DNA from: a virus
IMG/VR virus record: IMGVR_UViG_3300021376_002616
Span: 1 to 27,085 of that record
DNA length: 27,085 nt
Reading direction: 5' to 3' (one strand)
Shown here: positions 2,499 through 27,085 of the stretch, piece by piece
Layout of the letters: each line of letters starts with the position of its first letter
Position numbering within the stretch: position 1 is the first letter of the stretch
The notes under the pieces: model-generated
Databases searched by the model: none
Told to the model about the DNA's origin: nothing
The model's input: the letters and a program-made list of their open reading frames with translations, nothing else
Translations under genes and position numbers: made by a program

Positions 2499-3299
2499 AT
2501 GCTTGCGAATGATGACTTAGGTAATCTTGGAAGACTTGGAAACCAGCTGTTTCAATACACTGCTTTGCGTGGTTTAGCAGCAAGGCACGGATATGAGTAT
2601 TGTTTACCTCCAAGAGAAGTTGTAGCGACAAGAGATGATAATTGTAGAAAATCAGATACTACAATATTTGAAACTTTTAAATTACCTGATGCTCCTCGCC
2701 ATGTTACAAACTTTCAAAAAATAATGGAAGCAAACTTTGGTCTTGATCAAAATCTTTGGGATCATTGTCCAGACAATATCAGTCTTTATGGATACTTTCA
2801 AACGGAAAAATATTTTAAACATATTGAAGAAGATATTCGTCAGGCATTTACTTTTGTTGACGAAATTAAACAACCTACTGAAGAAGCATTTCAATCAAAC
2901 TTTGGGGATACTGAAGTTATAGCAATTCATCTTCGTAGAGGTGATTATTTAAAGTATCCACATCATCCTGTTCAAGAACTTGAGTATTATGCTCAAGGAT
3001 TATCTCATATGCCTGAAGATATTCCTGTGATGGTATTTTCTGATGGCATTGAATGGTGTAAAGAACAAGAACTTTTTCAAGGCGATCGTTTTATCTTTGC
3101 TGAAGGAAACAGCACTGGAGTTGATCTTTGCTTACAGGCACTTTGTTCTTATCATATCATTGCCAACTCTTCATTTTCTTGGTGGGGTGCTTGGTTGGCA
3201 AAAAGTAAAAAAACTGTTGCTCCTAGTATTTGGTTTGCTGGTCCAGACGCTTTTAAAGATTTGAGTGATCTTTATCTTTCAGACTGGATCATCATTTAA
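2499..3299 (+). CDS. GT11 family glycosyltransferase (alpha-1,2-fucosyltransferase-like)
   Basis: The GT11 hallmarks are in order: GRLGNQLFQY at residues 11-20, HLRRGDY at 144-150 (the donor-binding HxRRGDY motif of GDP-fucose transferases), and NSSFSWWGAW at 223-232. Full length is 266 residues, normal for bacterial and phage GT11 enzymes. The family usually transfers L-fucose from GDP-fucose to a galactose acceptor. No GDP-fucose synthesis genes are in this window, so the donor would come from the host or the specificity may differ. It is the first gene of the cluster, starting 25 nt after a TATAAT element. A late-type octamer follows its stop. Confidence 0.85.
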   Translation: MLANDDLGNLGRLGNQLFQYTALRGLAARHGYEYCLPPREVVATRDDNCRKSDTTIFETFKLPDAPRHVTNFQKIMEANFGLDQNLWDHCPDNISLYGYFQTEKYFKHIEEDIRQAFTFVDEIKQPTEEAFQSNFGDTEVIAIHLRRGDYLKYPHHPVQELEYYAQGLSHMPEDIPVMVFSDGIEWCKEQELFQGDRFIFAEGNSTGVDLCLQALCSYHIIANSSFSWWGAWLAKSKKTVAPSIWFAGPDAFKDLSDLYLSDWIII

Positions 3300-25886: not shown

Positions 25887-26048
25887 ATGCCAAGAGGACA
25901 ACTAACGCTCCAAGAAATGAAAAGGATTTTATTAACGTATAAGAAAGAATTATATGAGGAAAATGCGTCTTATACTTCAGACCCAAAACATCTTGCTCAT
26001 AAGTATTTAAATAAGATTCTTGAAAAAATTGAAGAATATAGGGTATAA
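25887..26048 (+). CDS. Conserved-looking hypothetical protein upstream of psbA (53 aa)
   Basis: ATG 25887, TAA 26046-26048, immediately after the terminator. The product starts MPRGQLTLQEMKRILLTYKK and contains DPKHLAHKYLNKILEKIEEY: a basic, helical, soluble protein. The MPRGQLT start and DPK-x-LA-x-KYLNK block look like a small protein I associate with psbA-flanking regions of T4-like cyanophages. No function is known. Its promoter is not obvious; read-through of the terminator is possible. Confidence 0.7.
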   Translation: MPRGQLTLQEMKRILLTYKKELYEENASYTSDPKHLAHKYLNKILEKIEEYRV

Positions 26049-26054
26049 TAAATA
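26047..26054 (+). promoter_or_regulatory. Possible late promoter octamer
   Basis: AATAAATA matches the NATAAATA late motif and lies about 265 nt upstream of psbA. It could give a late transcript with a long leader in addition to the early promoter at 26112. Confidence 0.3.
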
Positions 26055-26111
26055 TTGATATAGGAAAATATTGTAGTATTATAAGTGGCACTTCGGAAAC
26101 CGGCAGACCTC

Positions 26112-26140
26112 TTGACAGACCCTTGAAACCATGTTATGCT
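26112..26140 (+). promoter_or_regulatory. psbA promoter, sigma70 type
   Basis: TTGACA (26112-26117) and TATGCT (26135-26140) with a 17-nt spacer; the -10 has four of six consensus bases. Transcription would start near 26147, leaving a leader of about 170 nt before the psbA ATG. Confidence 0.75.
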
Positions 26141-26159
26141 AAATAGGTCAATAAGAAAA

Positions 26160-26302
26160 GTCAGGGTTTTCTGACAATTCTTGATCTTGCCGAAAAGGGA
26201 CGATAACTCCTTACCGGGACTAGGCAAGTAAAATCCGTCTCTCATATCCCTGCTGAGGGTGCAGGGAGCATAGTAATCCCACCATTTCCCTGATGGTATT
26301 AC
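26160..26302 (+). ncRNA. Structured psbA leader RNA (PhotoRC-like)
   Basis: Four hairpins can be drawn in the leader: 26160-26164/26171-26175 (GTCAG/CTGAC); 26186-26191/26223-26228 (CTTGCC/GGCAAG) enclosing an inner AAGG/CCTT stem; 26247-26253/26261-26267 (TCCCTGC/GCAGGGA, loop TGAGGGT); and 26273-26277 plus 26281-26285 pairing with 26293-26302 (ACCAT/ATGGT extended by GTAAT/ATTAC across a CCC bulge). The last two lie just before a run of A residues and the ATG, with no Shine-Dalgarno. PhotoRC RNA motifs are known upstream of psbA in marine cyanobacteria and cyanophages, and I infer this is one. It may control psbA translation or stability. Confidence 0.6.
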
Positions 26303-26319
26303 TTACTTTTTAAAAAAAA

Positions 26320-26595
26320 ATGACTGCTACTATTGCACAACAACGACAACTGAATAATTGGGAACAGTTTTGTAACTGGGTCACCAGCACCGAAAACCGC
26401 ATCTATGTCGGTTGGTTCGGCGTTCTGATGATTCCTACGCTTCTCGCCGCAACAATTTGCTTCATCGTTGCCTTCATTGCGGCCCCACCGGTCGATATTG
26501 ATGGCATCAGGGAGCCAGTTGCTGGTTCGCTTATGTATGGAAACAACATCATTTCTGGTGCTGTTGTTCCAAGTTCAAATGCGATTGGATTGCAT
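26320..26595 (+). CDS. psbA: Photosystem II D1 protein, exon 1 (codons 1-92)
   Basis: The reading frame gives [57 protein letters not shown] and [10 protein letters not shown]: the N-terminal stroma and first transmembrane helix of D1. The frame then meets TAA at 26599-26601, but D1 should continue with F-Y-P-x-W. The interruption is a group I intron, so the gene is split and not broken. Exon 1 ends after His92 in phase 0. The rest of D1, including the manganese-ligand C-terminus, lies beyond the window. Phage D1 replaces the rapidly turned-over host protein and sustains photosynthesis during infection. Confidence 0.95.
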
Positions 26596-26680
26596 TCGTA
26601 AAGGAGTGCCTTATATCGGAAATGGTATAAGAAAATCGGGTGAATTGCTGGAAACCTAACCCAGTAAAAGGATAGAAATG

Positions 26681-26688
26681 TATAAATA
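26681..26688 (+). promoter_or_regulatory. Late promoter octamer inside the intron
   Basis: Exact TATAAATA, five nt before the endonuclease ATG at 26694. T4 intron-encoded endonucleases are likewise expressed from late promoters inside their introns. Transcription would begin at about 26694, so the ATG at 26715 may be the true late start. Confidence 0.65.
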
Positions 26689-26693
26689 GTAAT

Positions 26694-27085
26694 ATGGAAA
26701 CCACTTCTATCCTAATGACTATCTACGAACAGTTTATTGAGTATTGTAAAACTGAAAACTTTGATAGTGAGTACTATGAAAAGCACCATATTGTTCCCAA
26801 GCATTCTGGTGGTACTGACGACAAAGAAAATCTGATTTACTTACCTCCTCATATTCACACTCTTACACATTATTATCGTTGGTTATCATTTCAAGAAATA
26901 GGCGATAAGGTTGCTTACGAAATGAGATGGAACCAAGATTTGGAAAGTGTGAAACTTCGTTCTCAACTTGCTGTTGAAACTAATAAAGAAAAAGGTAATC
27001 TTTTTTGGAATAGTGAATGGCAAAGAGAGCAAGGTCTAAAAGGTGGAACAAAAGGAGGTTCTGCTAATACTCAAAACCAGTTTCT
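26694..27085 (+). CDS. HNH homing endonuclease, intron-encoded (3' end beyond window)
   Basis: Open from ATG 26694 to the window end (130 codons, no stop). The HNH/ββα-metal signature is YYEKHHIVPKHSGGTDDKEN (28-46, including His31-His32, His37 and Asn46) followed by PPHIHTLTHYY with His53, His55 and His59. A Gly/Lys-rich stretch (GLKGGTKGGSAN) near the end resembles the DNA-binding tails of intron endonucleases. It would cut intronless psbA near the insertion site and spread the intron. The in-frame ATG at 26715 (residue 8) is an alternative start. It is related in type to the HNH endonuclease F-CphI described for a cyanophage psbA locus. Confidence 0.88.
   Translation, partial: METTSILMTIYEQFIEYCKTENFDSEYYEKHHIVPKHSGGTDDKENLIYLPPHIHTLTHYYRWLSFQEIGDKVAYEMRWNQDLESVKLRSQLAVETNKEKGNLFWNSEWQREQGLKGGTKGGSANTQNQF

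Follow-up and report, generated by a model that had tools for sequence, protein, structure and literature searches.

The window, by which we mean the whole 27,085-nt stretch of viral DNA that was analyzed (IMG/VR record IMGVR_UViG_3300021376_002616, positions 1 to 27,085), carries near its end the first exon of psbA, preceded by a leader in which the following features were distinguished:

26112..26140, + strand: putative sigma-70-type promoter TTGACA-17-TATGCT, with TG before the second hexamer (consensus scan, 10/12 matches)
26160..26175, + strand: P0, hairpin GUCAG-GGUUUU-CUGAC at the 5' end, not part of the Rfam model (comparative evidence)
26186..26191, + strand: 5' arm of P1, CUUGCC (Rfam alignment; varied complementary stems in relatives)
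26195..26212, + strand: P1a, hairpin in the P1 loop, AAGGG/UCCUU (19-nt insert relative to Rfam; subtype of the window)
26216..26220, + strand: PK5, 5' strand of the pseudoknot, GGGAC, in the P1 loop (covariation in relatives)
26223..26228, + strand: 3' arm of P1, GGCAAG (Rfam alignment; relatives)
26237..26241, + strand: PK3, 3' strand of the pseudoknot, GUCUC, followed by conserved UCAUA (covariation in relatives)
26247..26267, + strand: P2, hairpin UCCCUGC-UGAGGGU-GCAGGGA, with the nearly invariant AGGG in its loop (Rfam alignment; relatives)
26272..26303, + strand: P3, hairpin with outer stem AGUAAU/AUUACU, inner stem ACCAUU/GAUGGU, and loop UCCCU (beyond the Rfam model; relatives)
26304..26319, + strand: A/U-rich putative ribosome landing zone without a Shine-Dalgarno motif (sequence; predicted openness)
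26320..26595, + strand: first exon of psbA (photosystem II D1), then interrupted (Pfam Photo_RC 8.6e-13, first 91 codons)

An earlier, sequence-only reading of this DNA had proposed a 160-nt leader with at least four hairpins. The hairpins P0, P1 (26186-26228, with P1a inside), P2, and P3 all have comparative support, and the proposed bounds were close; the length becomes about 173 nt if the promoter at 26112-26140 is used, since this promoter would put the RNA 5' end near 26147. In relatives, the sequence TAtnnTAAATA was found 139-195 nt upstream of the ATG.

The psbA frame of the window is broken after codon 92, with a stop codon (26599-26601) just beyond the break. The ORF beginning at 26715 is that of an HNH homing endonuclease (Pfam HNH 9.3e-8, phrog_655 2e-13), and GGGTGAATTGCTGGAAACC, close by, agrees with the group I intron core of related psbA genes; the Rfam Intron_gpI threshold was not reached within 26596-27085. 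This segment is probably an intron with an endonuclease, cut at the window end. The psbA frames of cyanophages break at varied codons (about 62, 92, 107-109, 168, 188, 250, 263, and 306), and Rfam group I introns were found in loci L024, L064, L426, L484, and L495, with up to four per locus (L484). It should be noted that the deposited psbA start codons of phages S-SSM7 (L656) and Syn9 (L665) are probably wrong: both are upstream of the homologous start, that of S-SSM7 being at the PhotoRC region.

The covariance model of PhotoRC-II (Rfam RF01717) matched positions 26172-26281 (+) over its full length (1-96) with 50.9 bits, the threshold for membership being the gathering cut-off of 39 bits (E = 4.9e-6; 2e-7 in a smaller search), while PhotoRC-I (RF01716) gave no match at its gathering score and none at E up to 1 within 26000-27085. 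The supposition that this is a PhotoRC-type RNA was thus borne out, and specifically for PhotoRC-II. Two weak Rfam matches were far under their cut-offs (fluoride riboswitch, 17.9 bits; ncS16, 19.8 bits). Alignment to the model recovered the P1 and P2 stems and the conserved ACCgAGAC and GUCUCUCAUA, which, like the site upstream of cyanophage psbA, agree with the described family (Weinberg 2010, PMC2864571). The family is located in the 5' UTR of psbA in marine samples or cyanophages, as it is here, where the psbA exon begins at 26320. The window's version of the conserved motif is ACCGGGAC, which leaves one G-U pair in the pseudoknot. It differs from the family model by 19 inserted nt in the P1 loop, which form the separate hairpin P1a and to which the middling score is attributable, as in L058 and L059 (39-40 bits); the printed Rfam model lacks the pseudoknot, P3, and P0. 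Among cyanophages, 503 records matched the window leader and/or psbA at 60-90% identity, the best relatives of the flank being Synechococcus phages S-SRM01 and DSL-LC02.

The 5-bp pseudoknot joins 26216-26220 to 26237-26241 and lies outside the printed Rfam model. In all 121 initially parsed leaders, the 5 nt after CC in the P1 loop were complementary to the 5 nt preceding UCAUA. The pseudoknot was then evaluated by scans in which PK3 alone was fixed to non-standard forms and PK5 was left free, leaving out rows chosen by a psbA-independent pattern that fixed both strands. In the first group of unique psbA-linked leaders with non-standard PK3, an exact compensating PK5 was present in 27 of 28 (GAGGC:GCCUC, GGGAU:AUCCC, and GAGAU:AUCUC; the exception, L399, forms 4/5 pairs). 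In the second group, AAGAC:GUCUU was found in 62 of 63 unique psbA-linked leaders, the remaining one being a G-U intermediate. A scan for further PK3 forms (GTnNC) returned no psbA-linked leaders. With GAGAC:GUCUC and the wobble form GGGAC:GUCUC of the window, six PK5:PK3 combinations were recorded, and both-sided changes occurred at four of the five pairs. Independent contrasts on the psbA tree gave 20 concordant and 0 discordant changes, with two wobble-neutral (pair 1, 9, p = 0.004; pair 2, 2; pair 4, 6, p = 0.03; pair 5, 3), to be read with the caveat that the tree was built from psbA, the leaders may recombine, and contrasts at separate pairs depend on one another to some extent. In a 71-row alignment, 99.7% of the cells of this helix were paired. 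The unpaired bases CC, AAA, and UCAUA are invariant. Priority for the pseudoknot is not claimed: a 2020 method paper lists PhotoRC-II with other families that have covarying pairs absent from the library structure (PMC7657543), and the pseudoknot may be among the pairs proposed there or drawn in 2010 (PMC2864571).

Compensatory changes among cyanophage psbA leaders, suggested earlier as a check, were numerous in the other helices as well. The complementary P1 stems of relatives came in more than 25 sequence versions. P2 had 68 distinct 5' arms, which paired with their own 3' arms in 100% versus 63% after swapping, and P3, absent from the Rfam model, was found in 147/148 leaders, where its inner stems, 21 of them distinct, were complementary in 100% versus 48% after swapping; since the arms of P1, P2, and P3 were picked as the best stem per sequence, the swap figures express consistency and are not an unbiased test. 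The stricter evidence for P2 is the fixed-column counts of the 71-row alignment. The stem of P1a, an extra hairpin of the window's subtype that is not general to PhotoRC-II, also covaries in relatives (GGGA:UCCU, GGGU:ACCU, GGGAC:GUCCU, GGG:CCC). P0 lies directly downstream of the promoter and is very variable in sequence; 126 distinct 5' segments of relatives fold into such a hairpin with a mean score of 16.9 versus 12.0 for shuffled sequences, which were beaten in 90% of segments. The leader of S-SSM7 retains P1 and the pseudoknot, but P2 and P3 are gone, which shows that P3 can be dispensed with. The GGG of the P2 loop and the CCC of the P3 loop were complementary in all alignment sequences, with three invariant G-C pairs; the loop flanks did not covary (own loop pairs 10.86 versus 10.97 swapped), and a P2-P3 kissing loop is treated here as a possibility and is not claimed.

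The predicted fold of the window leader is not exceptionally stable. It reaches -43.5 kcal/mol, the mean of shuffled sequences being -37.9, and 18 of 200 shuffles were as stable or more so; with z only -1.41, thermodynamic stability was rejected as evidence for structure. The minimum-energy fold lacks P1 and pairs about 26195-26202 with 26235-26242 instead, and the comparative structure without its pseudoknot has -37.5 kcal/mol. In pairing plus covariation over the 71 rows, the whole structure beat 500 of 500 shuffles, and structures slid along the alignment had 38-64% of cells paired versus 91% for the comparative structure. Judged from these alignments, the evidence for leader structure is covariation and not stability, and the psbA leader of this virus is a true, conserved RNA structure of the PhotoRC-II family. 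The family itself is known; on the comparison of about 225 relatives, its anatomy is now better defined and larger than the library model.

The absence of a Shine-Dalgarno motif, already remarked on in the sequence-only reading, is evident in the window leader and extends to its relatives: the motif occurred in 0/148 PhotoRC leaders versus 6/17 psbA leaders without PhotoRC (17 of the 18 listed, as L035 has a PhotoRC that the parser missed). Genes without the motif rely on a local lack of structure, according to the accessible text of PMC3121790. The mean unpaired probability predicted for the 16 nt preceding the AUG (26304-26319) was 0.69 versus 0.47 for shuffled sequences. The distance from the last hairpin to the ATG at 26320 is 16 nt, where the earlier reading had given 17. 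In all leaders but one, the inner stem of P3 ends 18-25 nt before the AUG, and the P3-AUG spacing was 21.2 ± 1.8 nt versus 56.7 ± 10 nt between the promoter and PK5; the fixed P3-AUG offset points to the ribosome. The P2 loop was also considered as a distant Shine-Dalgarno or Yfr1 site, which is not preserved across the loop variants.

Among viral contigs with psbA, the PhotoRC-II element was found in 62 of 80 loci and not in 18 (class A held 64 loci, of which one is the window itself and another, L033, was placed there by a chance CTCAT). Of 42 longer records, 34 scored above the RF01717 cut-off. When the pattern was sought without regard to psbA, it matched 122 times: psbA begins 68-82 nt past the pattern in 115, five run into the end of a contig, and the other two are second copies adjoining psbA. 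The element occurs in relatives almost only upstream of psbA. Linkage to other genes was rejected, the exceptions L096, L045, and L133 being second copies adjoining psbA and the others without psbA being cut by contig ends. In L045 (about 1026-2332) and L133, the second copy is separated from psbA by a small cassette (89-aa ORF), accompanied in L045 by an HNH-like ORF; in L096 (4333), an unrelated 388-aa ORF intervenes. These copies look like duplications by mobile insertions.

Twelve cultured cyanophages were sampled; all ten T4-like ones carry PhotoRC-II (Syn1, Syn9, Syn19, S-SM2, S-SSM7, P-RSM1, P-TIM68, ACG-2014b, ACG-2014d, and S-SRM01), and the two T7-like podoviruses, S-CBP4 and P-SCSP-R27W, do not. 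In 300 genomes of the host family, PhotoRC-II was above cut-off in none and PhotoRC-I in 44. Since PhotoRC-II occurs in T4-like cyanophages and PhotoRC-I in hosts, the former looks like a T4-like cyanophage solution and the latter like a host one, as far as these genomes indicate. A host origin of PhotoRC-II was considered and rejected; the two sub-threshold RF01717 matches in hosts lie away from psbA and look like chance. S-SRM01 (L655), a freshwater Synechococcus phage, has the gene order of the window (peroxiredoxin, small ORF, psbA exon 1, homing endonuclease), yet its PhotoRC-II is of a different subtype, which suggests that the leader was exchanged.

Several known systems resemble this leader in part. 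PhotoRC-I (RF01716) of Synechococcus-type hosts is likewise a psbA leader without a Shine-Dalgarno motif, and 16 nt separate its last hairpin from the AUG; unlike PhotoRC-II, it is a 44-nt two-hairpin model, and the two have no sequence similarity. In the Synechocystis psbA2/psbA3 5' UTR, an A/U-rich zone that overlaps the ribosome site determines how long the psbA mRNA lasts, but that leader has 49 nt, no pseudoknot is described in the accessible text, and protection comes from ribosomes and the antisense RNA PsbA2R (PMC10989914). The CfrI antisense RNA of phage S-PM2 is also a non-coding RNA linked to phage psbA, but is described as antisense to the psbA 3' end and is no leader (PMC9602691). 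Our literature search found no published functional test of PhotoRC-II.

The best explanation, to which we assign a probability of about one in two, is that PhotoRC-II is a cis-acting 5' untranslated element of the psbA mRNA of T4-like cyanophages that leaves the region around the AUG free for initiation independent of a Shine-Dalgarno motif and shields the mRNA from decay. The compact leader body would fold on itself, leaving the start codon open, and P0 together with the folded body would keep RNase E from entering at the 5' end and slow decay; the outcome would be high, lasting D1 synthesis in infection while host mRNAs are degraded. According to PMC10989914, RNase E cuts the AU-box overlapping the ribosome site in Synechocystis psbA leaders, ribosomes protect these leaders, and host RNase E is raised in Prochlorococcus infected by phage P-SSP7. 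Against this explanation, P3 is dispensable in S-SSM7, cyanobacterial genes in general often lack a Shine-Dalgarno motif, and the leader sequences are phylogenetically related.

The retained pseudoknot and the invariant CC, AAA, and UCAUA exceed the needs of a passive stabilizer and are also compatible with a site for a ligand or a protein. They look like a recognition core rather than a simple hairpin and favor the main rival, a possible but distinctly less probable regulated switch, in which the pseudoknot core would bind a metabolite, an ion, or a host or phage protein and P3 would tune psbA translation, e.g., in response to light or redox state. The tuning to light or to host ribosome or protein factors suggested in the sequence-only reading is conjectural. 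The invariant P2-P3 loop complementarity makes a kissing switch possible, but the loop flanks do not covary, the element is tied to psbA alone while riboswitches usually spread over several pathway genes, and its discoverers thought a riboswitch improbable (PMC2864571). More tentatively still, PhotoRC-II may be a pseudoknotted viral translation element replacing the Shine-Dalgarno motif, its fold positioning the ribosome from a fixed upstream distance (or P2-P3 kissing gating it) and so setting the amount of viral D1 in infection.

Docking of a host small RNA (Yfr1, Yfr10, or Yfr2) on the exposed P2 loop is improbable. The loop UGAGGGU could pair partially with the C/U-rich motif of Yfr1, but loops vary (UGAGGGU, UAAGGGU, UUAGGGU, GGAGGGUG, GAAGGGAU) in a way that does not maintain the supposed pairing, and (A)GGG alone is constant. 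A Yfr2 pull-down in Prochlorococcus MED4 did enrich host psbA (PMC6778093). Even less credible is a transcription attenuator with P3 as a conditional terminator: a U-containing stretch lies downstream, but the inner P3 stem is followed by AUUACUUACUUUUUAAA with no immediate U-run, and the terminator scan, which looked for a G+C stem with a direct U-run before the gene, gave leader matches only around P0 and none at P3. That conservation acts on DNA alone, e.g., through an exchanged psbA block with an incidental RNA fold, is barely conceivable, for although psbA blocks recombine and related leaders have sequence in common, the covariation tests contradict it: compensatory changes recur in P1, P2, P3, and the pseudoknot, and slid structures have fewer paired cells.

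Viral psbA is among the most studied auxiliary metabolic genes of the ocean, and the architecture of P0, P1 with the pseudoknot, P2, and P3, with fixed spacing and no Shine-Dalgarno motif, makes the function of PhotoRC-II testable by break-and-restore changes. Natural controls exist in S-SSM7, without P2 and P3, and in psbA leaders bearing a Shine-Dalgarno motif instead. Loci L061, L063, L073, L079, and L081 share a psbA leader of another kind, which has GGGAGGTGCAATTCCTCC and TGGTCTTACTTAA but no PhotoRC motif and is possibly another structured leader. Elsewhere in the window, a wcaG RNA (RF01761) was found at 2315-2417 (74.1 bits versus a cut-off of 42), just upstream of a family 11 glycosyltransferase gene (2499-3299).
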